A DNA stretch of 15,035 nt, from the NCBI GenBank assembly GCA_949284665.1, contig CASDWR010000159.1, forward strand, positions 1 to 15,035, read 5' to 3'. A program made the position numbers and the translations under genes. The notes beneath the pieces are model-generated. The model saw nothing but the letters and a program-made list of their open reading frames with translations. It searched no databases and was not told the DNA's origin. This DNA is from an uncultured Rikenellaceae bacterium (GTDB taxonomy: Bacteria; Bacteroidota; Bacteroidia; Bacteroidales; Rikenellaceae). Shown piece after piece: positions 1 to 13,547 of this stretch; the stretch's first letter is position 1, and every line of letters starts with the position of its first letter.

Positions 1-876
1 CACCGGACCGGAATAAAATTCATCGATTACGGGTGCTTTGCTGTATGCAACAAGCTCTTTTGCAAATTCATCGACCTTTTTCGAAAGACAATGTATACAG
101 GGTAACGTTTTGTCAGTCGGAGCATAAATGCAGAGATTGTCCGAATATTCGGAACCATCAGCGGCACGCACCGAAGCCTCGATCATTACCATGGCGTCGA
201 AGATTGGCTGACGCATAACGACACCTTCGGAAGTGGTTACATAGTAGGCAAAATCATTGGCATCGAGAGTCACCTTCGAGTCGAAAAGTTCAGGGTATTT
301 TTCGAAAATCTTGGAGAGTTGAGTAATCGTCTCCACCCATTTCTCACGATTGAGATCGAACTCGGGACTTTCCACCACCTTTTTCACTGCCTGAACAGGC
401 AACAAGTCAGGCAATTTTTCCTCCTCTGGAGTACGAATCCGTTGTTTGCGAATAGAGAGCTTGGTAGCATAGTCGGTTGCCATACGACGGTAAAGGATAT
501 CGCTGGTGTACCAGAATTCACGACGGATCTGACCATAATCGTTCTCGACAGCACTTTTTTCGGTCAGGAAACGATTGTTGTAATCGCAATCGCTCGTACA
601 GTCATAATCGCCGAGCAACATTTTGACACCATAGTTGCGAATCGGACGCTCATCAACTTTAATAACGGCTCCCAACGAGGCCTCGACGGTCAGTACATCG
701 CCGCTGAAGATCGCATACGACATATGGAACGGTTTCTCCACATTCTCCATTTTGAGCTCATTCATGTTACGGTCGAGCTCATCCTGCATTGCCTTGAATA
801 TCAAGTCATTTTCGCTTTGGGCGAACACGTTTGCGCACAGTAGCAGCGCAACAAACGAAATTACGGTTCTTTTCAT
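1..876 (-). CDS. Exported TldD/PmbA-family protein, N-terminal 292 residues (runs off the window edge)
   Basis: The reading frame opens with ATG at 876 and stays open to base 1, so the 3' part is missing. The protein begins MKRTVISFVALLLCANVFA, a signal peptide with likely cleavage after residue 19, so it should act in the periplasm. Its N-terminal part is clearly paralogous to that of the upstream gene at 927-2642: both have a mature helix ending in 'ELDRNMNEL' or 'ELKYEMEQL', then a strand segment and a conserved aromatic-D-(Y/F) motif near residue 95. The visible part ends with FYSGPV, which aligns with YTGPAL just before the HExxxH site of the neighbour, so whether this copy keeps metal ligands cannot be seen. 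It starts 50 bp after the upstream gene's stop and is probably co-transcribed. By analogy with TldD/TldE (PmbA), where one subunit is catalytic and the other is not, it may be the partner subunit; that is inference. Confidence 0.82.
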   Translation of the reverse strand, partial: MKRTVISFVALLLCANVFAQSENDLIFKAMQDELDRNMNELKMENVEKPFHMSYAIFSGDVLTVEASLGAVIKVDERPIRNYGVKMLLGDYDCTSDCDYNNRFLTEKSAVENDYGQIRREFWYTSDILYRRMATDYATKLSIRKQRIRTPEEEKLPDLLPVQAVKKVVESPEFDLNREKWVETITQLSKIFEKYPELFDSKVTLDANDFAYYVTTSEGVVMRQPIFDAMVMIEASVRAADGSEYSDNLCIYAPTDKTLPCIHCLSKKVDEFAKELVAYSKAPVIDEFYSGPV

Positions 877-926: not shown

Positions 927-2642
927 TTAAAACAGCATGGGATCTTCGCTGACGGAGGGTCTTTCGAGTACAGGCACAGTATTCATGCTCTTGCTCTTGC
1001 GTTGCAGTTCCACTTTCTTTACCAGAATAGCGGGAGAAGATGCGGTTACGGGAACCCAACCGGATTCTGCGCCGCAAGTACCGGTAAACACGCCTACTTC
1101 TCCACCGCCTTCTATAATACTGGAGAACATCGACAGCGGGGTACCGATCAGATCGACGCCGCGAACCAGTTCATCGGGACGACCATCCACGTAGATTCTG
1201 TACACTTCGAGCGGGGTTACATTGAAGGAGTTCGGAGACATACGTCCAGTCTGAGTAAAACCACCGGTTACGGTCTTGAAGAAATAAGCATACTCTTTTT
1301 TCTGGGCTTTGGCCTCTTTGATCAAAAGTTTGCGCAATTGTTCATCGGTCAAATGTTTGCTGGTTTCGATCACCAGATTGGATTGACGGGAGACAGGGTC
1401 ATAAGCCTCTGACGCACGGGCATGGCCATTCGACTGTCCGAACTCATCGGTCGGGACACGTGTCATCAGGAATTCATTAAGGATACCGTCTTTTACCACT
1501 TCGACACGACGACCGCGGACACCCTGATCATCAAACACGTAGTAACCGTTCATATCCTGTCCGTTGTAGTTTTTGAGTGTAGGATCGTCATAAGCGGAAA
1601 AGTGTTTCGGCAACACGTATTCACCTATCATCTTTTTGAATGTCTGGCCATCACTGTCGCGTTTCATGCGCTGTCCTTCGGTACGATGCCCGAATATCTC
1701 ATGGAAGAAAACACCGCTGGCCTCACCTGAGAGCAATGCCGGACCGGTATAGGGTTCTACAGCAGGGGCGGTACGCATTGCCTCGAGCGTAGCGATCAAT
1801 TCGCGCACGTCGGCCATGATTTTTTCATCGCTCGGAAGTCCTTTCGGATCAAAAGCATAATATGAAAGGTTCAACGGGAGTTCCATCCCGTCATCCGTTC
1901 TCATCATACCCGAAATAAAAATACGGCATGCGCGGGAGTTCTCGGCAATCTCTGCCCCCTCGCTCGAAACAAAATACCTACGAGTCGTATTGTAGCTTGC
2001 AGCTGCTTCGCCTTCTATAATGTTGGGGTTTTCAAGGAAAAGAGCACTGTATTTTTTCAATTTCTCTTCGAAGAGTTTAGCATCGAAGGCATTCAACTCT
2101 TCGGCCGTAAAGGGTTCCTCATAGTATTTTTCGGCTTGTGCATCGGAGAAGTCAGGCGCTTTATCGTCGGTTTTGGTATATACGTTGTCGGCAGCCTTGA
2201 GTTTTTCATAGGTTTCCACAGCATATTTGTAACGATCATTCACTTCGCTCCAGATAGCTTGCCGGATTGCGAGTTCTTCGTCGGTCTGGGGGATATAGCA
2301 GATCTGAGGTCCCATAAAGAAAGAGGTCGCCACACCGTTCACCTGACCGTGGAAGTTGTCGAAATCGTAGCTGCCGATTCGGATTTGAGGTACAAACGAA
2401 CGGACGGATTTGTTCGTCGAACTTACCAGCGTTCCGAAAGAGGCTCTCACCACATTGGAGGAGGTTTCCGCCACACGGTAATTCATATAATAAGGAGGAT
2501 ACTCCGTCTTACCGAGTTGCTCCATTTCGTATTTCAGTTCGGACTTCAGGATATCCATCAATTTATCCTGAGCCTGAAGCGAAACCGAAACAAAAAGTGC
2601 ACATACCAGTGCCACCGATCTGAAAGTTTGTGTCTTCATCAT
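927..2642 (-). CDS. Exported TldD/PmbA-family zinc metalloprotease-like protein
   Basis: 571 residues. Two adjacent ATGs (2642 and 2639) could start it; the choice changes one residue. Residues 1-25 form a signal peptide (hydrophobic ALVCALFVSVSL, cut near SLQAQ), unlike the cytoplasmic TldD of E. coli. The TldD signature is intact: YTGPALLSGEASGVFFHEIFGH at about 298-319 is represented by H314-E315-x3-H319 (HExxxH), and a C-terminal C523-G-A-E segment followed by VPV matches the third, cysteine metal ligand known in TldD. The N-terminal half is longer than in E. coli TldD. The family cleaves unfolded peptides and matures or degrades small peptides (microcin B17, CcdA) as a TldD/TldE heterodimer. 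Here a paralogous gene follows 50 bp downstream. A promoter-like element at 2723-2762 shared with fecR suggests control by the local ECF sigma factor. Family assignment is firm; the substrate is unknown. Confidence 0.92.
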   Translation of the reverse strand: MMKTQTFRSVALVCALFVSVSLQAQDKLMDILKSELKYEMEQLGKTEYPPYYMNYRVAETSSNVVRASFGTLVSSTNKSVRSFVPQIRIGSYDFDNFHGQVNGVATSFFMGPQICYIPQTDEELAIRQAIWSEVNDRYKYAVETYEKLKAADNVYTKTDDKAPDFSDAQAEKYYEEPFTAEELNAFDAKLFEEKLKKYSALFLENPNIIEGEAAASYNTTRRYFVSSEGAEIAENSRACRIFISGMMRTDDGMELPLNLSYYAFDPKGLPSDEKIMADVRELIATLEAMRTAPAVEPYTGPALLSGEASGVFFHEIFGHRTEGQRMKRDSDGQTFKKMIGEYVLPKHFSAYDDPTLKNYNGQDMNGYYVFDDQGVRGRRVEVVKDGILNEFLMTRVPTDEFGQSNGHARASEAYDPVSRQSNLVIETSKHLTDEQLRKLLIKEAKAQKKEYAYFFKTVTGGFTQTGRMSPNSFNVTPLEVYRIYVDGRPDELVRGVDLIGTPLSMFSSIIEGGGEVGVFTGTCGAESGWVPVTASSPAILVKKVELQRKSKSMNTVPVLERPSVSEDPMLF

Positions 2643-2722: not shown

Positions 2723-2762
2723 TATAAAGACGAAACCCTCAACTGAAATCATTACAAATTTC
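2723..2762 (-). promoter_or_regulatory. Putative ECF-sigma promoter of the tldD-like operon
   Basis: Read on the minus strand this is GAAATT, TGTAATGATT, a 10-bp spacer, then GTTTCGTCTTT and ATA. The same arrangement with the same spacer length occurs upstream of fecR at 12780-12819: 28 of the 30 positions outside the spacer are identical, against 2 of 10 in the spacer. TGTAATGA would be the -35 element and CGTC the core of the -10 element. The CGTC ends about 86 nt before the tldD-like start codon. CGT-type -10 elements are typical of ECF promoters; assignment to the sigma factor at 12996-13547 is inference. Confidence 0.62.
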
Positions 2763-2773
2763 GGTTAATTCCG

Positions 2774-2807
2774 AAAAAAAGTGCGCCTTCTTTGCGGAAG
2801 ACGCACT
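2774..2807 (-). terminator. Intrinsic terminator of the SusC/D operon
   Basis: On the minus strand the transcript would form an 11-bp stem, AGTGCGTCTTC paired with GAAGGCGCACT (one G-U pair), around a 6-nt CGCAAA loop, followed at once by seven U residues. It lies 20 bp past the stop of the fimbrillin-like gene and just before the tldD-like promoter element, so the two operons are transcriptionally separated. Confidence 0.9.
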
Positions 2808-2826: not shown

Positions 2827-3753
2827 CTACTTTACCGTAAAAGTCAGCGCTCCGTACATGTTGACGTTATTTTCATTCGACATCGACTCGCTAGGTTTGC
2901 CAGTAGCGGTAATCGTTTTGTTGTTATCGAACGTAACCTCTACCGTATATTCATACGAAAGAGCAGTTTCATAAGGTACGGCTACCATCAAATAAAGTGT
3001 TTCGAGAGTCATCCCCATACCCCAGGACGAATAATCGTTAATACCGATCTCACCAGTATAAGAGATAGAATTTACAGCTTCCCCCGAAATCGTTTCTTTT
3101 TCAAAATCAAACGTTCCGTTCTTGTAGGCAATTGGCTTATTGGCAGTAATCGTGCAGGAAGTAACCTTGGTTACTGTTCCCAATTCGTCGGGCAATTGGG
3201 CACTCGGCACGGTAACTTGAGCAAAAAGACTCTTAAAATCGCCCAGATCGGTAACGGCTACCGAATTTTCACTTACCGTTGCCGATGCATAACCGAAGTT
3301 GTATTGAAGTTTCGGGCAATAATCCTCCGTATTGACCTCCTGTACAGACAAATCAGGGATTACAACCTCATTGCAGGATTTCGAATCGGCATTGTAAGGT
3401 ACATAGGCATACACCTTATGTTCCCCAGCCTTAAATCCGGCAGCTGTTTCAACAGGGTTCAACACCACATTTCCAGCAGAAGTCCAGTCCGTTCCCCCAT
3501 ATCCGTTGTCTTCTCCGACTGCCACGGCAGAAGGTTTGTACAACAGGTTGTTTTGGGGCTGTCCGTCGGAGGTTACAAATACACCGATCTGCTCGCCTTC
3601 CATCCATCCGTTATTGTGGGAATAGGGTTTAAAATCACCCGAGATCTTGATTTCGCCCACTACCGGAAGATCCTGCTCGCCTTCTTCGTCTTTCTTACAA
3701 CTCCATGCCGATACGACAAGGGCAGCAAGTGCCAAACAATAAATTTTCTTCAT
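2827..3753 (-). CDS. Fimbrillin-like surface lipoprotein (tentative)
   Basis: 308 residues. The N-terminus is a lipoprotein signal peptide, MKKIYCLALAALVVSAWS followed by C19. The residues after the cysteine, KKDEE, resemble the lysine/acidic export signal that sends Bacteroidota lipoproteins to the cell surface. After a short linker come W50-x-E-G-E-Q-I-G-V-F-V and later 'KVYAYVPYN', a pattern seen in fimbrillin/Mfa-like proteins (tryptophan, then a G-(D/E)-x-I-G-V strand, then a YAYxPY strand). The rest is predicted to be beta-rich, ending MYGALTFTVK. It is the last gene before the terminator and lies 82 bp after the PKD-like gene, in a very AT-rich gap. It could be a surface adhesin, a pilus-like subunit or a substrate-binding accessory lipoprotein. 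Lipoprotein status is well supported; the fimbrillin assignment rests on motif similarity only. Confidence 0.6.
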   Translation of the reverse strand: MKKIYCLALAALVVSAWSCKKDEEGEQDLPVVGEIKISGDFKPYSHNNGWMEGEQIGVFVTSDGQPQNNLLYKPSAVAVGEDNGYGGTDWTSAGNVVLNPVETAAGFKAGEHKVYAYVPYNADSKSCNEVVIPDLSVQEVNTEDYCPKLQYNFGYASATVSENSVAVTDLGDFKSLFAQVTVPSAQLPDELGTVTKVTSCTITANKPIAYKNGTFDFEKETISGEAVNSISYTGEIGINDYSSWGMGMTLETLYLMVAVPYETALSYEYTVEVTFDNNKTITATGKPSESMSNENNVNMYGALTFTVK

Positions 3754-3835: not shown

Positions 3836-5542
3836 TCAATACTCTCCTTCGTAATTGGTACACCAGACTATTCCCTTTATATCACCGAAACCCTCAAAAG
3901 ATGCGAGTTCGAGTTGAGGCTGGAATCCTTCAAAAAGACTCACCATTTTGGTTTCGGCCACATCGATCACCGTAATCGTCCCATTTTCGAGCCCAAGGGC
4001 CAATCGCCAGTTCGGGTATTCGGAATGTCCACCGTAATCCTTGAACGGGCACTGTATCGGGCTGGCGCATATCTTTCGAATCGGCGACGAAGCGGTATAA
4101 GCCAATTTATAGGTATTGGTACGGATATCGTACACATAAAGATTCTTCTCCCCATCCGTAAAATAGGAATAACGGTTTGTATTGAAATCAGAAGAGAACA
4201 GGATCACGCTCCGGTCCGTAAGCAGATCGGCACCGGCAAACGGTACCTGGGAGGTTGATGCAATCAGATGGTTGCCATACGTAAGATTTTTAACGGCAAA
4301 CGAGTATATATAATAACTCCCCGCACCATCCAGATCCAGCAATGCGACATAATCTCCGTACGGATAGATCCCCCCGACTTCGCTGACATCGCACATTTGA
4401 TAGGCACTGATTGCAAGGCAACGCGTAGCGGTACCCAATGCATCGATAGGCCTTTGACCGGAAGGAACGACACAGTTTTCATCGTATTTCCAGAGTTTCA
4501 CGGCTACCGCCCGATAACTGTTTGCAGGATCGTCCTTAATGTATGGACCTTCCACAAAGGCATAGAAACAACCATTCACCCCGTCATATCCGAGACATTT
4601 GTCGGCGCTTTCAGGGACAAAACCATTCGCATAGGACACATTGGTAAACGGTGCCAAACAAGTAATCTTGCCTCCAGCCAGTTCTACGGATTGGGCGCTG
4701 TATTTCCCATAATAAGGAACATATTCGTTGGTGTAGTCGCCCGTCACGGCTCGCATGAACGTATCTCCTTCACGATCGTGAATCAGATAGAATCGTCCTT
4801 TGAACACGAACGTATCCATAAAGAGATTTTCCGGTTCCTGACCGTTTTCGAATTCGTCTCTCAACCACATGTCTTTCTGTAGGGTCCTGCCGTCGAGCGT
4901 CACGGTTCCACTTCCCTGATTAATAATAATTTTCGGCAAACCAGACACATACGACCCGGGGATGGAACCGTTGACATAATAGTAAAAAATTCCTCTCGGT
5001 TCGGTTCCGAGGCCACCTTCGATCGTCGTCTCGAGATTATGCAACGGTTTCAGATCGGGCGTTATGAAAGAGATGGCCGAATTGCCGTCGCCTCTGTCCA
5101 GCAACACCATCCATCCCCAGTCGAAACTGTTCTCGATCGTCAGGCCATACTCTTGGCTGATAAACCGTTCTCCGCTCTGGCGATTGGTCACCTTAAGAAT
5201 CAGGCCGTGCGTACCTGCCACATCAAACGTGTGACGAAAGACGGGATCGTTGCAAAAAAATTCACCATCCAGATACCATTCCACATCAAAGGTCTCCGCA
5301 ATGTCGACATCGGGATTCTCCAACGAGAAGGGAGCCTCGATCACTACCTCATCCCCCACCAGAAAGGCATAATTCATCTCTGTTGTAGAGAAGAACGTCA
5401 GATTGTTGGTCGCTTTGTAATCGTAGTTCCCCTTATCCTTGAAACAACTCCAACACAGGCATGCAGCCAAACAGACGATACCCGTGGTCAAATATCTTTT
5501 CAGACTACCATTCATAACCGCAAAACCTTTCTCCATCTTCAT
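3836..5542 (-). CDS. PKD-like family lipoprotein of a SusC/D locus
   Basis: About 568 residues from the ATG at 5542. That ATG overlaps the TGA of the DUF4843 gene (TGATG), which suggests translational coupling; ATGs at 5536 and 5515 are alternatives, and the last gives a more ordinary signal peptide length. The hydrophobic segment GIVCLAACLCWS precedes the lipid-attachment cysteine (residue 33), followed by FKDKGNYDYK, a start typical of the PKD-like lipoproteins found next to DUF4843 genes. Residues of about 45-140 look like an Ig/PKD-type beta domain (V-E-W-Y-L-D-G, then a G-T-H-G-L-I-L-K-V-T strand); the remainder looks like a beta-propeller with repeated Y-x-Y and D-x-(K/R)-T-N segments. 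The family is thought to be an outer-membrane accessory of SusC/D transporters. The exact role and ligand are unknown. Confidence 0.85.
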   Translation of the reverse strand: MKMEKGFAVMNGSLKRYLTTGIVCLAACLCWSCFKDKGNYDYKATNNLTFFSTTEMNYAFLVGDEVVIEAPFSLENPDVDIAETFDVEWYLDGEFFCNDPVFRHTFDVAGTHGLILKVTNRQSGERFISQEYGLTIENSFDWGWMVLLDRGDGNSAISFITPDLKPLHNLETTIEGGLGTEPRGIFYYYVNGSIPGSYVSGLPKIIINQGSGTVTLDGRTLQKDMWLRDEFENGQEPENLFMDTFVFKGRFYLIHDREGDTFMRAVTGDYTNEYVPYYGKYSAQSVELAGGKITCLAPFTNVSYANGFVPESADKCLGYDGVNGCFYAFVEGPYIKDDPANSYRAVAVKLWKYDENCVVPSGQRPIDALGTATRCLAISAYQMCDVSEVGGIYPYGDYVALLDLDGAGSYYIYSFAVKNLTYGNHLIASTSQVPFAGADLLTDRSVILFSSDFNTNRYSYFTDGEKNLYVYDIRTNTYKLAYTASSPIRKICASPIQCPFKDYGGHSEYPNWRLALGLENGTITVIDVAETKMVSLFEGFQPQLELASFEGFGDIKGIVWCTNYEGEY

Positions 5543-6291
5543 CAATCGCTAATTGTTTCATAAAGCGGCGTAATGCCATCAACCGCATAATATTGATAAT
5601 TGCCTTCTGCCCATTGTTCTTTCCACCATGCTTTGAAGTCGGTAATCAATTGTCCGAAGGCAATACCCGTATAGGCATCCAGGTTTTCAAGTATTTCACC
5701 ATCCATAAAGATGATAAAAACACGGTACTTGATATCGGAATATTCACCCAAACGGTTGGCCGTTGCGTTGGACCACCACGACGGTTCTTCCACGACATCT
5801 CTTACCCGGACAGTTGCCGTCTTGTATTCCGCAGGGCCTACCACACAACCGTCAACAGCGTCGAGTCTCAAAACGATCGTAAAATCCGTAGCCAGCAGAT
5901 CGGCATTGCGTTTCACCTCCAACCACAGGGTATCCACCACATTCTCCTTATGGAACACCCCCTGAGATACAGGCACGAAATCCGTATTCGCTACAGCTGT
6001 AGTGTTTTCCGGATCGACACTAAGGTAATAGGTTACATCCTGTGCGAGCATGAATCCCCACAACGAAAGCGACACGGGGACCTGACCGGTCATCTCAAGC
6101 GCAGCCTGTGTTGCAAAGTTGAATTCGTAGGTTTGTGCCGAGCGATCATTCATATAGGTAAAGAACATGTAATTATCCCCGTCATATGTTTTGATCTCAG
6201 CCTCCTTGCAACCGAAAGACATTGCCAGGACCGCCATTAAGGCCAAACTACGGATTGCCGTATTTTTCGAATATTTCATTTTGTTTTTCAT
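5542..6291 (-). CDS. DUF4843 domain lipoprotein
   Basis: 249 residues. ATG at 6291 is chosen; an in-frame ATG at 6279 is equally plausible and would remove four residues. The signal sequence ends MSFG-C28, a good lipobox. The mature part follows the DUF4843 pattern: an early YDGDNYMFF segment, a beta sandwich with YYLSVDPENTTA, then 'TDF' and 'RLDAVDG' strands, and a C-terminal helical region rich in tryptophan ('WWSNATANRLGEYSDIKY', 'AWWKEQW'). It starts 27 bp after the susD stop and overlaps the following gene by one base. Proteins of this family are nearly always encoded between SusD and a PKD-like lipoprotein, as here, and are presumed to be outer-membrane accessory lipoproteins. No biochemical function is established that I know of. 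Confidence 0.87.
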   Translation of the reverse strand: MKNKMKYSKNTAIRSLALMAVLAMSFGCKEAEIKTYDGDNYMFFTYMNDRSAQTYEFNFATQAALEMTGQVPVSLSLWGFMLAQDVTYYLSVDPENTTAVANTDFVPVSQGVFHKENVVDTLWLEVKRNADLLATDFTIVLRLDAVDGCVVGPAEYKTATVRVRDVVEEPSWWSNATANRLGEYSDIKYRVFIIFMDGEILENLDAYTGIAFGQLITDFKAWWKEQWAEGNYQYYAVDGITPLYETISD

Positions 6292-6318: not shown

Positions 6319-7884
6319 TCAGTTGATCGACTCGCTTGTCGGCACAGGCAACACGTAACTGCCCGACATGTCGATCTGCGTACCTCCATCGTTCCCAGAA
6401 TCGATCATCGACATATTCAACCTCTTATAAAGGAAGAACGTCTGACCTTCGCCAAGGAACTCCTTGCGTGCATCCATGATGATCTCTTCCATAAGGTCAT
6501 CCGCATCCTGGACTGTCAGGCTGAGCGACCGTTCTGCACCACGTGCCCTGCGGACCGTTTCGAGATATTCGATTCCTTCGGAGATATTTCCCTCTTTGGC
6601 ACACAATTCAGCCAAGATGTGACAAACCTCACTGAAACGCATCACAGGAATTGTCGGATTTTCCATTTTCATCATCTGGTCATCGGTCGATTCGTTGTAT
6701 TTCAGTGTATAATAGCGGGAATTGGCCTCATTGGTCTGACCGATCAGATAGTCGAGTCGATAATCCGAATACTGACCGACGTTGTCGGCAGCAAACAGTG
6801 TCTCGATATTGGCCAACGGCAATCGCGTCGTATTGGATGACAGCGAGGTCCGCCACACCTTCTCCTGATAATCTTCCGTAAGGGTTTGCTTGTAAAGGCC
6901 GAACAACATATCGTCGATCACTTTCAAATGGCGCAATGAAATACCGCAGGTAATATTCGAGGCTTCCGTAAATCCGATCCATATTCTGTTTTTATAAAAC
7001 TGATCGTATAACTCCTTGGCACACGATCGGGCATTGAGGTAATATGTCTCGCCTCCATACATATATGCCCGGGCCATCAGCCCCAATACCGACATGTAAT
7101 TCATTCGGAAACCGCGGTACCAGAAGAAGATTCCCATTTCATCGATTGCCGAGGGGGCCAAACGGAAAAATGCTGCGTAATAGGCTGACGGTTCGGTCTT
7201 GCCAGAAGCATACATGGCTTCCGGATGCCATTCAAGGTCGACCTTTTTCAATAATTTGCCTGCCTCCTCGAAATCGGCATAAACCTTTTCGAGAAAAGCA
7301 CGGACAGTCAGTTTCGGAGCTACATTCGCATCGAACTCCACGCGATAAGGTAAGTAGGTACCGGTCGGATTACTTGCAGGCGAAGGAGCAAATAGACGCA
7401 ACAGGTCGAAGTGCATCATTGCACGCAGAGCAAGAGCCTCACCGTAAATCATATCCTTCTCTTCCTCTCCATACGCAAAAATAGAGGGGTCGGCCTCCTT
7501 GAGTTCGGCGAGCAGTTTATTCACGTTTGCAATCACCAGATACCCCTTTTCCCAAATATTTTTCACAACCGATTCTGTCTGGTCCGTATTGTACAGACGC
7601 AGTGCGGCATCACGATACAACGGAGATTCGACATCATCACCCTGCATATACTGCTGCCCGACAGCACTCAAAAAGCCCCAACTCAATTCACATCCGTAAA
7701 GATCCGGTTCGGCCAGATTAATGTAAATACCGTTCAAAGCGTTTCGAAATCCGTACCCCTCCTCGAAAAGATCGGAGTCGGCGATTGAGTTTTCCGGGGT
7801 CACATCGAGCCAATTATTGCATGCGGTCATCGACAACGCTCCGCAAGCGATCAACACATATCGATATATCTTATTCTTCATCAT
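6319..7884 (-). CDS. RagB/SusD-family nutrient-binding outer-membrane lipoprotein
   Basis: 521 residues. The lipoprotein signal is MMKNKIYRYVLIACGALSMT-A-C22, followed by NNWLDVTPEN, the usual SusD opening. The conserved N-terminal helix ALRAMMHFDLLRLFAPS is at about 152-169. Near the C-terminus are 'MRFSEVCHILAELCAKEG', 'ARKEFLGEGQTFFLYKRLN' and the ending YVLPVPTSESIN, all standard SusD landmarks. SusD lipoproteins sit over the SusC barrel as a hinged lid and capture the substrate. The gene starts 18 bp after the susC stop, so the pair is co-transcribed. The type of SusD accompanied by DUF4843 and PKD-like proteins is often found at loci with peptidases rather than glycosidases. No carbohydrate-active enzyme is encoded in this window, so the ligand may not be a glycan; this is inference. 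Confidence 0.95.
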   Translation of the reverse strand: MMKNKIYRYVLIACGALSMTACNNWLDVTPENSIADSDLFEEGYGFRNALNGIYINLAEPDLYGCELSWGFLSAVGQQYMQGDDVESPLYRDAALRLYNTDQTESVVKNIWEKGYLVIANVNKLLAELKEADPSIFAYGEEEKDMIYGEALALRAMMHFDLLRLFAPSPASNPTGTYLPYRVEFDANVAPKLTVRAFLEKVYADFEEAGKLLKKVDLEWHPEAMYASGKTEPSAYYAAFFRLAPSAIDEMGIFFWYRGFRMNYMSVLGLMARAYMYGGETYYLNARSCAKELYDQFYKNRIWIGFTEASNITCGISLRHLKVIDDMLFGLYKQTLTEDYQEKVWRTSLSSNTTRLPLANIETLFAADNVGQYSDYRLDYLIGQTNEANSRYYTLKYNESTDDQMMKMENPTIPVMRFSEVCHILAELCAKEGNISEGIEYLETVRRARGAERSLSLTVQDADDLMEEIIMDARKEFLGEGQTFFLYKRLNMSMIDSGNDGGTQIDMSGSYVLPVPTSESIN

Positions 7885-7902: not shown

Positions 7903-10900
7903 TTAGAACGAAATATTCAAAGACAAATCGAACGTCCTGGAAAACGGATAGTCCAATCCACGTTCCCGACGGATCGACGAGATGTAGAACAGATCGCCGA
8001 TATTGGCCGTTATCCGACACATACCGATTCCTGCCTTTTTGAGCCACTTCTGATTCAGATCGTAGCTCAACGACAGGGAAGTAAACTGCAAAGTATTGTC
8101 TTTCTGTATAAAACGGGATGTAGCGCCGGTCGTCTTGTTTCGATCCTTAATATCCTTGAGTGTTGTGATGTCACCCGCTTTCTGCCAGCGGTCCATCATG
8201 ACACGGCGGTCGACATTATCGTCGGCGATATTGGCGTTTTCCACGTTGTTGACCAGCGTATAGTTATAGCTGTCACCACCGAAATTGTAGAGGAATGCTG
8301 CGAACAGTACCCACTGTTTATAAGCGACCGTAAACCCGAACGATCCTTGTCCTTTCGGAGCGCTGTCACCGATAACCGACCACTCATCGGCAGACCATTC
8401 GTCGGTTACGTCCCCGTTTCGCTTCACGTAAATCTCTTTCCCGTTCGTCGGGCTGATTCCCAGTGATTTCATACCGTAAATCGAAGTCATCGAAGCTCCC
8501 TCGTAATACTTTACGTATGTTTGCGAATACTGGCTGTTTTCGGTTTGGCCGGACTCGAAGTCATCGAACAACTCTTCCACACGTCTGTTATAGTCACGCA
8601 TGGCCTCCGAAATTTCCACGATGGTGTTTTTGTTCCGGGCGAAATTGCCGTATACCGAGACGTTCCAGTTTTTGTTCCTTATCAGATTCAACCGGAGATC
8701 AATCTCGACACCCACGTTCTTCACCGACCCCATGTTTTCTTTGTAAGAGGTAAAGCCCGTCGACGACTGAATCGTATAATCGGTAATGAGATCGATCGTC
8801 TTCTCGTTATAGAATGATGTTTTCAAGTGGACCAGATCTTTCCACAAGCCCAGTTCGATTCCATAGTCGAGGGTATATTTCCTTTCCCACTTAAGGTTCG
8901 GATTCCCCATCTGATAGAGATAGACACCGTATCCTGACGGATACCAGGAATCGGTCTGGAGTTGATACATGTTTCGGGCGGCATCGAGTGTGAAATTCGT
9001 CTTACCGGTCAATCCATATGACCCTCGTATCTTCAACATAGAGATCACAGGGTGATTTTTCAAGAAACCGTAATTATGGATATTGAGTCCGAGTCCGGTT
9101 GCCCAGAATCCGGACCATCTACGGTCGGCTCCGAACTCAGAAGAACCGTCGACACGTCCCTGAAGGTCAAACAAATAAATATTGTCGTATGTATAATTGG
9201 CCCCCAGCACGGCCCCGATCAACCGGGTCAAATTATCCGAGTACTCGGGCTTGTCGGTAATATAAGCCGCATAGTTTGAGGAGATCAGTTCACCCCCGGG
9301 GAAACCGCGATACATGGCCGACGACGCGGAGGCGTTGGTTTGACGGATATTTCCGGCAAGGTTGAAATTGAGGTTATGTTTGCCGATATTGTTGTTGTAC
9401 ATCAGCATCAGGTTCCCGTCCACAATGGTGGAAGAACTGCTTGTCACGGTTTTTTCACCGTTATTGGCGGCATTGTTGGAAGAATAGGCCGCTGAATTGG
9501 GATCCTGATACGAATCGCCGCTTCCTGTTTTCGAACTGATCGAGAGGGTTCCGCGCAGCTTCAAATGGTTGACGATCTCCCAGTTTACACTAAGGTTGTT
9601 GGTCAGATCGTTATAGTCATCAATGATATAGCTGTTGTAGTTGTTGATTTCATAAAGCGGATTGACGACATTGCCCGAATACCCGTCAAAACTTTCCAAT
9701 CGACGCAAATAGTTGCCATCCTCGTCGTAAAGACGCAGATAGGGCAACATGTGCGAATAGTCGCTGAACGTATTGAAAGGGACGTCGCTGCTTTTGGTAT
9801 AGTCGTATGTGACCTGATTACGGATTTGGAAGCGTCCGATACGATAGTCTACCATGAATCCCCCCCCCGTTTTATTGCGGGAAGAGTGCTTCATTACGCC
9901 ATTGGTATTGTCGTAACGGAACTCCAGGCCCCACCGGAGGTCGTTTTCACCACCGTCGACATAAATCGAATGTTTGTGATTCACACTGGTACGCAGTCCC
10001 TGTGAAAGCCAATAGGTATCCACACCCGACAGCACGTTGTTGCGGCGCATGTAATAGGCATTCGTATAAGGGTCTACCTCGGGGGTTGAGCTGTCATACA
10101 AACCAGCCAGGCGTTCCGTTTCGAGTTTTTCTGCCGCATTCATCAGGTTGTAGGAAGAGAGATCGGGCATCTCCACCGAAAGGGTGGTATTGTATTGTAC
10201 ACGAAGTTTGCCCGCTTCCGGTGCACGGAGTTCGATCACGATGACTCCATTGGCTGCACGCGACCCGTACATGGCCGTTGCCGCAGCATCTTTCAGGATA
10301 TTGACGCTATGAATACGGGTCATATCGAGGTCGTACACCTTTTCCACATCCACTTCGAAACCGTCGAGGATGAAGATCGGGAGATTCGAATTCTGATTTC
10401 CGACCAGTTCCTGACGGGAGATACTCGATGTGGAGGACTGTTCGAGCTGTGTGACACCCATACCCGTCTGTCCCCGCAATACGAAATCGGGCATCACATT
10501 GGGGTTTGATCCGGCTGCCAGATTCTGTTGAATTCGGAACGAGGGATCGAAAGCCTGTATGGCACTGATTACATTATGGGGATTCACCCGCAACAACTCC
10601 TCTTTGGTCACTTTGGTGGTATTGCCGGAAAATCCCTCTTTGCGCAGGGGGGCATAACCGGTCACGATCACCTCATCGATACTTTCAGCCGCATCGACCA
10701 TCGTCACGTCAAGCACCCGCTGAGATTTCACTTCGATTCTCCGGGTTTCCATCCCCAGGTAACTAAAAACAAGCACGCCGCCATTCTTCGGTCGCGTGAT
10801 CGAATAGTATCCGTTCTTATCCGTAACAGCTCCGGTGTTTGAGTCCTCGAATGTCACAAAAACTCCTACGATCGGCTCTTTTGTGACTCGATGCGTTACG

Positions 10901-11319
10901 ATTCCCGTTACCTTGTCGTTGAGTGTGGCTACAGGTTTCTGGACTTTCTCTTCGGCGACCTTGATAACAATCGTATTGTCCTCTTCCACCCATACGAGCC
11001 CTGTCCCTACCAGATATTTATCCAACACATCAGCTACCCGCATATCGGATACGGACACATTGAGTCCTTTCACCTCGTGGGCCAAACGGGTATTGTATAA
11101 AATATACGTATTGGTCTGTTTCGTGATTTGTTCGAGCAGGTCGGCAAGTGTCGCATTTTCGAGTCGGATGGTTACCCGACTCTCCTTGTCGTTGACGGCC
11201 GCAGCCTGCGAGAAGGAAAACAAACACATGGCCGCCACCAGGAGGAACAACCGACACACCCTCTTCCCTTTCGATTTCCGTTCATTTTCCCATTTCGGAT
11301 CGAGACAAACTTTCGTCAT
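7903..11319 (-). CDS. SusC/RagA-family TonB-dependent transporter with STN signalling domain
   Basis: 1138 residues from the ATG at 11319. The open frame continues upstream to a TTG at 11346, but the ATG gives a normal signal peptide: charged residues to K19-R20, then a hydrophobic stretch to AAA at about 39-41. Domain order: STN (secretin/TonB short N-terminal) domain at about 48-122; carboxypeptidase-regulatory-like barrel at about 136-210 (VTGIVT, then DKNGYYSI); the IDEVIVTGYAP segment at 214-224; plug with LDGFEVD and the hallmark ILKDAAATAMYGSRAANGV; then the outer-membrane barrel ending in LNISF. The STN domain is what lets FecA-type transporters report substrate binding to a FecR anti-sigma factor, and such a factor is encoded just upstream. 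A run of nine G (plus strand C at 9860-9868) encodes T484-GGG and may be prone to slippage. The substrate is unknown. Confidence 0.95.
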   Translation of the reverse strand: MTKVCLDPKWENERKSKGKRVCRLFLLVAAMCLFSFSQAAAVNDKESRVTIRLENATLADLLEQITKQTNTYILYNTRLAHEVKGLNVSVSDMRVADVLDKYLVGTGLVWVEEDNTIVIKVAEEKVQKPVATLNDKVTGIVTHRVTKEPIVGVFVTFEDSNTGAVTDKNGYYSITRPKNGGVLVFSYLGMETRRIEVKSQRVLDVTMVDAAESIDEVIVTGYAPLRKEGFSGNTTKVTKEELLRVNPHNVISAIQAFDPSFRIQQNLAAGSNPNVMPDFVLRGQTGMGVTQLEQSSTSSISRQELVGNQNSNLPIFILDGFEVDVEKVYDLDMTRIHSVNILKDAAATAMYGSRAANGVIVIELRAPEAGKLRVQYNTTLSVEMPDLSSYNLMNAAEKLETERLAGLYDSSTPEVDPYTNAYYMRRNNVLSGVDTYWLSQGLRTSVNHKHSIYVDGGENDLRWGLEFRYDNTNGVMKHSSRNKTGGGFMVDYRIGRFQIRNQVTYDYTKSSDVPFNTFSDYSHMLPYLRLYDEDGNYLRRLESFDGYSGNVVNPLYEINNYNSYIIDDYNDLTNNLSVNWEIVNHLKLRGTLSISSKTGSGDSYQDPNSAAYSSNNAANNGEKTVTSSSSTIVDGNLMLMYNNNIGKHNLNFNLAGNIRQTNASASSAMYRGFPGGELISSNYAAYITDKPEYSDNLTRLIGAVLGANYTYDNIYLFDLQGRVDGSSEFGADRRWSGFWATGLGLNIHNYGFLKNHPVISMLKIRGSYGLTGKTNFTLDAARNMYQLQTDSWYPSGYGVYLYQMGNPNLKWERKYTLDYGIELGLWKDLVHLKTSFYNEKTIDLITDYTIQSSTGFTSYKENMGSVKNVGVEIDLRLNLIRNKNWNVSVYGNFARNKNTIVEISEAMRDYNRRVEELFDDFESGQTENSQYSQTYVKYYEGASMTSIYGMKSLGISPTNGKEIYVKRNGDVTDEWSADEWSVIGDSAPKGQGSFGFTVAYKQWVLFAAFLYNFGGDSYNYTLVNNVENANIADDNVDRRVMMDRWQKAGDITTLKDIKDRNKTTGATSRFIQKDNTLQFTSLSLSYDLNQKWLKKAGIGMCRITANIGDLFYISSIRRERGLDYPFSRTFDLSLNISF
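9860..9868 (-). repeat. G9 homopolymer inside the susC-like gene
   Basis: Nine consecutive C on the plus strand, read as G on the coding strand, encode the end of T484 and glycines 485-487. Mononucleotide G runs of this length are classical sites of slipped-strand mispairing. A gain or loss of one base would frameshift the barrel less than halfway through the protein. Confidence 0.85.
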
Positions 11320-11587
11320 AGGCTCTTCAGTTATTAAGTCATTCAATATCTTATCCTTTACCGCGCTACTGCATCTATTCGATACCGAAAACCGCCTGCA
11401 AAGTTCCGCATAAAAATTTGTAGCGACAATACCTACAATCGGGGATTTTCATCCCTCGACACTTTCCCTTCGTTCGGAAAGTTTCTCGTTGCAGCAAACG
11501 GCCCCACCCCACAGCATGCAAAAAGGTTATCGCATCACACCTTGCACGAACCCGCATCCGCCGAATCGACGGATGCTCCTTATTCTT
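11320..11587. other. 268-bp gap between fecR and susC with small inverted repeats
   Basis: No convincing gene. On the minus strand it contains three hairpin-forming repeats: GCATCCG/CGGATGC right after the fecR stop (11554-11576), ACTTTCC/GGAAAGT (11461-11482) and GGGAT/ATCCC (11442-11455). None is followed by a U run in the direction of transcription, so none is a standard terminator. I found neither a good Bacteroidota housekeeping promoter (TTTG and TAnnTTTG) nor a copy of the CGTC-type element here. Read-through from the fecR promoter is therefore the simplest way to express susC, possibly with attenuation or RNA processing in this leader. Confidence 0.5.
11554..11576 (-). repeat. Hairpin-forming inverted repeat after fecR
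   Basis: GCATCCG, a 9-nt loop, then CGGATGC, 11 bp past the fecR stop. It lacks a following U run on the minus strand, so it may be an mRNA 3'-stabilising or processing hairpin that lowers expression of fecR relative to susC, rather than a full terminator. Confidence 0.4.
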
Positions 11588-12688
11588 TCATTTGCGACCT
11601 GCTTGCTGACTGATGATACACACTTCGTCTTTGCATATCACGAATCGAAGTTCTCCGGTCATCTCCAACATACGGATCATATCGTCTACCGACCGGTATT
11701 TGCGGATATGACCTGAGAAATTTTTATCGAGTCCTTCTTCTGCAACGAACGGCACATTGTACCAACGTGTCAATTTCTTCGCAATCGACGCAATCGGTTC
11801 ATTCTGAAAAACGAACTCTCCCTGTGTCCAGGCTCCGTATCCGGAAGCATCGACCGAATCGATCCGAACCCCGAGGGTCTCGTTATCTATCACGAATCTG
11901 TCGTTTGGGACAAGGCTGTAATTCTCATTTGCCGTACGAACATCGACCCGGCCTCTTTCCAACACCACCTGTGTTCTCGAATCGTCCGGATAAGCACTCA
12001 CGTCGAACCGGGTTCCCAAGACTTTCACGACGGCATGAGAAGTTCTCACTTCAAAAGGAGTCTCACCTTTGGTAACATCGAAGAACGCCTCGCCGGTAAG
12101 GTGTACTGCTCTCGACTTCCCGGAGAACCGGGTCGGATAGATCAGTTCTGATCCGGCATTCAACCACACTTGGGTTCCATCGGACAAAATCACCTTGTAT
12201 TCTCCTCCGAGCGGGGTAACGATTTTGTTGATGGTCATCTCTTCCTCGCCGATGATATCCGTATCGTATTTCAGATCGGCCAAATCATAGGTAATAAAAT
12301 CGCTTCGGCGACCGATCTTCACATGACACGCATCCAGGATCTCCGTTGCTTCGGCATCATCCATTCGGCCCAATTCCAATTTCTCTCCCGAAGCAAGTTC
12401 CAACACAGCCTTTGTCGTACCTGCCATAGCATTGGATAGATCGAGTTTGCGCGTGGAGTCATAAAAATACCATACCCCCCAGGCACAAAAGGCAAAGAAA
12501 GCAGCGACAGCAGCATAACGGACGGCAGGGATTACCTTTGCAAAGGCACGTCTGCGTCGTTCTTTGCGAATGGCTTCAAGACATTCTGAATCATCATAGC
12601 TGTAAAACAGTTTCAGATCCTCTCTTTCCGAAGGAGTCAGATACGGGAGTGTGTTCTCCGTATCGTATATGTTCCTTTTTCCCTTCAT
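11588..12688 (-). CDS. FecR-family anti-sigma factor
   Basis: 366 residues from the ATG at 12688. The cytoplasmic N-terminus (1-53, rich in charged residues) should hold the sigma factor. One transmembrane helix follows at about 54-76 (VIPAVRYAAVAAFFAFCAWG), and the rest is periplasmic. The FecR domain spans about 158-252, with the signature TPLGGEYKVILSDGTQVWLN, then 'HLTGEAFFDV' and 'VLGTRFDVSAY'. A DUF4974-like domain occupies about 290-360 and would contact the STN domain of the transporter. Unlike the E. coli fecIRA arrangement, the sigma gene is not upstream in the same operon but divergent, about 300 bp away. FecR proteins either inhibit or activate their cognate ECF sigma factor in response to transporter occupancy; which applies here cannot be told. 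Expression probably starts at the element at 12780-12819. Confidence 0.95.
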   Translation of the reverse strand: MKGKRNIYDTENTLPYLTPSEREDLKLFYSYDDSECLEAIRKERRRRAFAKVIPAVRYAAVAAFFAFCAWGVWYFYDSTRKLDLSNAMAGTTKAVLELASGEKLELGRMDDAEATEILDACHVKIGRRSDFITYDLADLKYDTDIIGEEEMTINKIVTPLGGEYKVILSDGTQVWLNAGSELIYPTRFSGKSRAVHLTGEAFFDVTKGETPFEVRTSHAVVKVLGTRFDVSAYPDDSRTQVVLERGRVDVRTANENYSLVPNDRFVIDNETLGVRIDSVDASGYGAWTQGEFVFQNEPIASIAKKLTRWYNVPFVAEEGLDKNFSGHIRKYRSVDDMIRMLEMTGELRFVICKDEVCIISQQAGRK

Positions 12689-12779: not shown

Positions 12780-12819
12780 TACAAAGACGAAACAATGTAT
12801 GATAATCATTACACATTTC
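12780..12819 (-). promoter_or_regulatory. Putative ECF-sigma promoter of the fecR-susC-susD operon
   Basis: On the minus strand: GAAATG, TGTAATGATT, a 10-bp spacer, then GTTTCGTCTTT and GTA. It matches the element at 2723-2762 at 28 of the 30 positions outside the spacer, in the same orientation. The CGTC core ends about 97 nt before the fecR ATG, leaving a leader close in length to that of the tldD-like gene. The -35 part overlaps an inverted-repeat half-site (12800-12810), so a repressor bound there would block it. A housekeeping promoter here cannot be excluded. Confidence 0.65.
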
Positions 12820-12861
12820 AACTATTTTTATATGGGCATCAAACCACAACAATGATTATCA
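12800..12861. repeat. 11-bp inverted repeat with Fur-box-like core in the divergent promoter region
   Basis: TGATAATCATT at 12800-12810 and its exact reverse complement AATGATTATCA at 12851-12861, separated by 40 bp. Each arm is itself almost palindromic (TGATWATCA). The 11-mer is identical to the central part of the classical Fur box (GATAATGATAATCATTATC), but the flanks of both sites match it poorly. One arm overlaps the -35 part of the fecR promoter element; the other lies between the two divergent promoters. A binding site for a dimeric repressor is plausible; Fur itself is only a suggestion. Confidence 0.45.
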
Positions 12862-12914
12862 GCACGTAAAAGCGTCAGGAAATGTTTATGACAGGACAAA
12901 GTTATGCGTTTTTC

Positions 12915-12995: not shown

Positions 12996-13547
12996 ATGAT
13001 TCAAATTTCACTGATAGAAAGAGTATTCAAGAAGCATTATCGCAGTGCCGTATTTTATGCCCAACGCATCGTTCAGCGGAAAGAGGTAGCAGAAGATATC
13101 GTACAAAACGTATTCTTGAAATTCATGAGTGGCGAGATCACCGTCCGCGGCGACTTGAGTGTCTATCTATATACCGCCGTGCATAACCGATGTATCGATT
13201 ATATTCGGATGCGTCGGTTGACAGACACGACGACTGACGAGCTGGCAGAGGAATTGGAAGACATTGCTCCGGATTTTCATCCGGAGAATGAACTTTTCGT
13301 CCGTACGCTTCACATGCAACGCCTCTATGAAGCGATTGAGGATTTACCGCCCAAAAGACGCCGTATTTTCTGTATGATACAGCTCGAACGGCTTTCATAT
13401 GCAGAGACAGCCGATGCCCTTGGCATATCGATCAATAGCGTAAGGACCCAAATGTACCGGGCCATGCGTTTTTTGAAATCGACTCTCCGGAACGGTCACA
13501 CCTCCGGCCGAAAACATACCGATCGAGAGGAATCCGACAAAACCTAA
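12996..13547 (+). CDS. ECF RNA polymerase sigma factor (Bacteroidota expansion family)
   Basis: 183 residues from the ATG at 12996. Region 2 (about 10-75) contains AEDIVQNVFLKF and 'SVYLYTAVHNRCIDYIR', which contact core polymerase and the -10 element. Region 4 (about 108-162) contains LPPKRRRIFCMIQLERLSYAETADALGIS and 'NSVRTQMYRAMRFLK', a helix-turn-helix for the -35 element. The positively charged tail is short. These are the landmarks of the sigma-70 subfamily expanded in Bacteroides and relatives, whose members usually partner a FecR protein and a SusC transporter. It is divergent from fecR and is the natural candidate to recognise the two CGTC-type elements. It is the only convincing plus-strand gene in the window. 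Confidence 0.95.
   Translation: MIQISLIERVFKKHYRSAVFYAQRIVQRKEVAEDIVQNVFLKFMSGEITVRGDLSVYLYTAVHNRCIDYIRMRRLTDTTTDELAEELEDIAPDFHPENELFVRTLHMQRLYEAIEDLPPKRRRIFCMIQLERLSYAETADALGISINSVRTQMYRAMRFLKSTLRNGHTSGRKHTDREESDKT

Follow-up and report, generated by a model that had tools for sequence, protein, structure and literature searches.

The window (the whole stretch of 15,035 nucleotides analysed here, from an uncultured Rikenellaceae bacterium) carries on its minus strand two copies of a bipartite element that very probably serves as a promoter recognised by the ECF sigma factor whose gene lies at 12996..13547, by which FecR/SusC signalling would reach two transcription units. The initial annotation of this DNA had suggested that the local ECF sigma drives both operons, and at the level of sequence this is supported by the cross-genus conservation of the element at the two operon heads, with exact copies nowhere else in either assembly, by a related version before fecR in eight SusCD relatives together with matching changes in the sigma regions, and by a terminator located just before the tldD promoter.

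The gene content of the window has, as predicted from sequence, the anatomy of surface signalling. Read from right to left, the minus strand contains fecR, susC, susD, a DUF4843 gene, a PKD-like gene, a fimbrillin-like gene, a terminator, the tldD site, a TldD-like gene, and a partner gene cut by the contig end. The FecR anti-sigma factor (11588..12688, minus strand) matches PF04773 and PF16344 (FecR and FecR_C domains) above cut-off, and the ECF sigma factor (plus strand), the gene of which is divergent from fecR, matches TIGR02985 (Sig70_bacteroi1) with 132 bits against the NCBIfam cut-off of 126.4. The SusC/RagA-type TonB-dependent transporter (7903..11346, minus strand; TIGR04056) matches RagA and other SusC structures in sequence and has an N-terminal STN-like domain, so that a sigma factor, FecR, and an STN-type TonB transporter lie at one locus, with the STN match under the curated cut-off (25.8 vs. 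28.4 bits). The remaining minus-strand genes of the unit encode a SusD-like lipoprotein (6319..7884; PF14322, PF07980), a DUF4843 lipoprotein (5542..6291; PF16132), a PKD-like lipoprotein (3836..5545; PF16407), and, in last place, a fimbrillin-like lipoprotein (2827..3753; PF13149); neither the DUF4843 nor the PKD-like protein had a match in the PDB. An intrinsic terminator with an 11-pair stem and a T run (2780..2807, minus strand) closes the susC operon. It is followed by the exported TldD-like metalloprotease (927..2642, minus strand; Pfam PF19289), which has the motif HEIFGH and matches the PDB TldD structure 5nj5 by profile, and by the partner TldD/TldE-like protein (1..876, minus strand), which has a 26% match to the TldD query and of which the cut piece gave no match in a Pfam scan. 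The signal-peptide-like N-terminus of TldD and the lipoprotein signals were judged by eye.

Contamination of the bin was considered and rejected. The RpoD-like protein encoded beside the locus in the window is 98% identical to that of six same-genus genomes and 95% to that of G230, with DNA-level values lying close together (78%–80%), and the protein identities place the contig in the same genus or a close relative. In G230, a related SusCD locus (G230:C1:88615-101307) is found within about 13 kb of an rpoD-like gene, as in the window, with a different order and orientation.

The two 40-bp blocks (minus strand, 2723–2762 and 12780–12819) are identical at 28 of 30 positions outside a 10-base spacer and at 2 of 10 inside it, as had been reported for them. 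Their common form, TGTAATGATT-N10-GTTTCGTCTTT, occurs on the minus strand at 2756–2726 and 12813–12783 with 0 mismatches, and no further match with up to three mismatches is present in the window; 200 dinucleotide shuffles of the window yielded a mean of 0.00 matches. The best bipartite identity between the tldD and fecR upstream regions is 21/21, against a maximum of 17 in 60 control pairs of upstream regions shuffled in blocks of two bases, and the identity of the two sites is far above chance. Both sites end about 83–97 nt 5′ of the start codons, which agrees with the distance first proposed. The primary-sigma −7 box TAnnTTTG is found neither in the 184 bases before tldD nor at the element; one such box lies at 12904–12897, farther upstream of fecR than the element.

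An orthologous locus in G276, which belongs to another genus of the same family, delimits the part of the element that is conserved. The identity of its products to those of the window is 52%–54% for the sigma factor, 46% for FecR, 65%–71% for SusC, 52% for SusD, 53% for the DUF4843 protein, 43% for the PKD-like protein, 75%–76% for TldD, and 57% for the partner; the fimbrillin-like gene has a diverged counterpart (24%) in the corresponding place. As in the window, the sigma gene and fecR are divergent, and the partner protein, which is complete, has PF19289 and lacks the HExxxH motif that the window TldD carries, the window partner being truncated where the contig stops. In G276, fecR (L104:5022) and tldD (L104:14840) are each preceded by the exact core TGTAATGATT-N14-CGTCT, so the comparison of orthologous upstream regions advised in the initial annotation returned the element at both places. 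In the window, the −35-like box TGTAATGATT of the tldD promoter is at 2747..2756 and that of the fecR-susC promoter is at 12804..12813 (both minus strand and identical in G276), while the −10-like box CGTCT is at 2728..2732, 14 nt after the −35-like box, and at 12785..12789, respectively. The 15 core letters are present in two exact copies in the source genome (G000) and two in G276, and in none elsewhere in either assembly. Thus, two boxes are kept at a fixed distance around a free spacer at four sites in two genera, and the earlier remark that CGTC at −10 fits an ECF sigma holds for CGTCT at all four core sites, with GGTCT in one group of relatives.

Of the window element, the G276 locus repeats TGTAATGATT, the spacing, and CGTCT(N)T and nothing more, so the functional core is shorter than a comparison of the two window sites suggests. 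The conserved core, as judged by this comparison, is TGTAATGATT-N14-CGTCT, and the identity that extends past it in the window (GAAAT, GTTT, TTT, TA) is not conserved. The recognition sequence first put forward therefore stands as a two-box site with fixed spacing and has been shortened to this core, because G276 keeps nothing more. The same extended identity would be left behind if part of the fecR promoter had been duplicated before tldD and had decayed incompletely, but a copied block of this kind is extremely unlikely given the dissimilar spacers and the G276 pair of sites, which have the core in common and not the flanks; the original preference for a sigma-factor site over a copied block is borne out on the same grounds. 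Duplication may be the origin of the second site, but selection must then have retained the core alone.

Another feature of the fecR promoter region is an 11-bp inverted repeat (TGATAATCATT / AATGATTATCA) at 12800–12861 that spans the −35 box. The second half, a plus-strand sequence with CGTC after it, is oriented towards the sigma gene and has an 11/15 match to the core. In the window, this match is located 118 nt upstream of the start of the sigma gene; its counterpart in G276 is poor (10/15, at a different place and distance), and self-regulation of the sigma gene is not claimed.

The element is rare in the genomes scanned. The source genome assembly comprises 1,887,120 bases (1.89 Mb) in 281 contigs and is 77% complete. 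The scan with mismatches that had been proposed as a check recovered from it, for TGTAATGATT-N10-GTTTCGTCTTT, the two window sites and one 3-mismatch match on another contig, and for TGTAATGATT-N14-CGTCT two extra one-mismatch matches on other contigs, both overlapping open reading frames. Among nine genomes, the exact core occurs twice in the source genome, twice in G276, and in none of the remaining seven; with up to two mismatches, there are 28 matches against 14 control matches, most of which are meaningless. In 393 genomes of the order (a sample outside which G276 falls), the core was found at the two window sites and at one stray site, with three matches for the reversed control. Relaxing the motif to TGTAANGA-N16-CGTCT gave no enrichment in 268 family genomes (31 matches vs. 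48 for the reversed control), which means that weak forms of the motif say nothing without context, and its use as a family-wide regulon finder was dropped. The form TGTAANGA-N16-SGTCTNT has nine matches in eight genomes, against three for the control, and 9/9 precede fecR or tldD at loci of this type; it was built from the sites themselves, so the informative part is the absence of other matches. Occurrence before many unrelated genes, which had been named as evidence against a sigma-specific site, was not seen in the 77%-complete source genome: the exact form is confined to the two operons in this assembly and in that of G276 (84% complete), and the relaxed form behaves as background.

Two further sets of matches were noted. 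In G066, six places (L011–L016) hold near-identical TGAAAAGATT-N10-GTTTCGTCTTT copies with two mismatches, two of which lie 43 bases away from the end of a contig, and this set looks like a mobile or repeat element. In G230, TGTAAGGATT-N14-CGTCT (G230:C3:20056-20084; L167:6056) is located about 35 nt before a 588-aa open frame with carboxypeptidase-regulatory-like domains, on a contig other than that of the G230 sigma locus; it is possible that this is a distant target of the G230 sigma.

An ECF promoter may also be read by a different ECF sigma of the genome. There are 10 Sigma70_r4_2 matches in the source genome (nine above cut-off) and seven in G276 (six above cut-off), and in Bacteroidota an ECF sigma can regulate genes far from its own, as described for SigW-1 and PUL59 in the available part of one report (PMC12596196). 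However, the 31-letter element, with up to two mismatches, was found among the 268 family genomes in the source genome alone, apart from the repeat-like G066 set, and the 22 other genomes of the same genus, some of them incomplete, contain neither the element nor a tldD gene, where a sigma of the core genome would be expected to keep its sites. The sites instead track the local sigma across genera, which makes control by another sigma unlikely. Furthermore, only one FecR gene, the local one, was found in the 84%-complete G276 assembly, leaving one natural sigma/anti-sigma pair for both sites, and binding by the locally encoded sigma is what we infer.

The FecR upstream regions of related loci were scored for TGTAA-N(18-20)-CGTC, with 36 FecR-like frames reduced to 27 distinct regions. 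A score of 8 or 9 of 9 was obtained for 11 of the 27, namely, the window, G276, eight SusC relatives with 43%–51% identity (G230, G231, G048, G192, G198, G194, G185, and G188), and L030, whose match, at 4 nt from the start, probably arose by chance. The site is thus kept before the own anti-sigma/receptor operon in G276, and a related one is found there in the eight relatives; six more distant SusC relatives (L121, L124, L129, L131, L137, and L173) have no such site before fecR, and none of this type was found upstream of the three other FecR genes of the source genome. The sigma factors of six of the eight relatives were aligned, those of G185 and G188 being left out. In what we take, from the general structure of sigma factors, to be region 4.2, the predicted recognition helix is VRTQMYRA in the window and G276, both with the box TGTAATGATT; the six aligned relatives, with the box TGTAAGGA, have (V/I)KTHMYR(T/S) there. 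The segment placed as region 2.4 on the same assumption reads DYIR, DYLR, or DYVR with CGTCT and DYAS with GGTCT. Changes in the boxes thus appear to go with changes in regions 4.2 and 2.4, a match behind which there are few independent changes.

The two boxes are about two helix turns apart, a spacing that would also suit binding by a transcription factor such as SusR or an HTCS regulator, with the element then acting as an operator, and HTCS sites are described in part of one source as direct repeats about 21 bp apart (PMC3878776). The boxes of the present element are dissimilar and form neither direct nor inverted repeats, Pfam scans of ten window proteins revealed no such regulator, and CGTCT matches the CGT box at −10 that the available text on Flavobacterium proposes for an ECF promoter class (PMC9723704). 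An operator in place of a promoter is accordingly very unlikely.

The promoter reading extends to tldD as a predicted second target of the sigma. The tldD unit is shielded by a terminator in both the window and G276, and with a terminator preceding it, tldD needs a promoter of its own. In G276, the terminator (L104:14840-14890) consists of a 12-pair stem, the loop TATAT, and a T-rich tail, with the CGTCT box in its 5′ arm; the sequence of this box, being part of the hairpin, could thus have another explanation. The window terminator is separate, upstream of the −35 box, with no overlap with the promoter. By eye, a similar overlap of promoter and terminator was seen at the fecR upstream sites L117 and L118 (G185 and G188).

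Control of this type is uncommon among exported TldD genes. A search of genome contigs with a single TldD protein gave no match, and one with the TldD alignment A1 gave at least 552 stretches encoding a relative. From a set of 83 regions (the best 80 of these at least 552 stretches and L102, L104, and L107, of which L107 and L027 are probably one contig), 80 exported-TldD upstream regions were used, and the element was found in L104 alone. The other 79 score at most 9/13, at or below shuffles, so that tldD seems to be under such control in two lineages only. In the loci examined, the tldD pair generally looks to be free of control by such a sigma, and the window and G276 are where it would have become part of the regulon. 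Seven tldD loci with SusCD neighbours (L030, L031, L032, L038, L045, L046, and L049) were compared by their tldD and fecR or susC upstream regions, with approximate start positions and 15 shuffles each, and no shared bipartite element stood out; their best scores are 13–17/21 against shuffle maxima of 15–17, with one case one above its maximum, and L104 reaches 18 against 17 by this measure. At E up to 0.001, the TldD gene was found in none of the other 22 genomes of the genus, and at E up to 1e-30 in four of the 268 family genomes, among them the source genome and G276, which has the whole locus. Among the matches listed, numerous Bacteroidota records as well as bins labelled Ignavibacteria encode exported TldD/TldE-like pairs, but these are rare in the family to which the window belongs. 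The distribution is patchy, and the locus probably moves or is often lost.

In the mechanism proposed here, FecR would hold the sigma inactive until a signal arrives. A substrate would be sensed by SusCD, and SusC, via its STN-like domain, would probably signal to FecR. The freed sigma would then read the core (−35 TGTAATGATT, 14 free bases, and −10 CGTCT), and two units would be transcribed: fecR-susC-susD-DUF4843-PKD-fimbrillin-like and, behind the terminator, the exported tldD/tldE-like pair. RagA imports peptides, and the other SusC structures that were matched are glycan importers. From the match of SusC to RagA and the profile match of TldD to E. coli TldD structures, we infer that SusCD may import a peptide or a fragment of a protein, which the TldD pair would then cleave. 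A broader idea, offered tentatively and with considerable doubt, is that one surface-signalling sigma links the outer-membrane uptake of a peptide-like compound with its breakdown by exported TldD/TldE, and that two lineages brought the tldD operon into the regulon via one promoter gain, which in one of them was written into the terminator of the upstream operon, where read-through is stopped and sigma-driven transcripts pass. As a sequence-based prediction, the regulon is solid and belongs to a known type, the second target being the uncommon part of it. The apparent design is that, in this gut-type bacterium, one small local regulator switches on an outer-membrane nutrient importer and an exported protease-like pair through a shared two-part signal, and this pairing points to a peptide-type substrate, which is directly testable.

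Few of the ECF sigmas that are so numerous in gut Bacteroidota have a known recognition sequence. By 2020, no recognition motif was known for those of B. thetaiotaomicron, and EcfO of B. fragilis had been identified, according to the available text (PMC7366714). In 2025, a −30/−10 motif that differs from the present element was proposed for SigW-1 and SigH-1 (PMC12596196), and ECF promoter prediction without start sites is called challenging in part of another source (PMC3878776). Titles and abstract openings returned by literature searches contained nothing on a TGTAATGATT-N14-CGTCT element or on TldD control in Bacteroidota. Here, sequence alone yields a sharp candidate, single-copy relatives, matching sigma changes, and a second target operon.

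The E. coli TldD/TldE pair (TldD structure 5nj5) is cytosolic. The window and G276 pairs resemble it in having a TldD domain with HExxxH and, as seen in G276, a paired partner without it, but differ in their signal-peptide-like N-termini and likely surface-signalling sigma control. Similar to the primary sigma promoter of Bacteroidota (TTTG at −33 and TAnnTTTG at −7, as given in part of PMC7366714), the element has two boxes and is located before the start codon, but it lacks TAnnTTTG. The SM6 promoter class of Flavobacterium psychrophilum is different in that its associated genes include T9SS components, and the TGTAATGATT box is not named in the available text (PMC9723704). The system is also close to FecI/FecR/FecA signalling and its Bacteroidota ECF/FecR/SusCD form, with which it shares the TIGR02985 sigma, FecR_C, an STN-like SusC, and a sigma-type promoter before fecR-susC, whereas it is distinguished by a sigma gene divergent from fecR and by a second operon, encoding an exported protease-like pair, with the same promoter.
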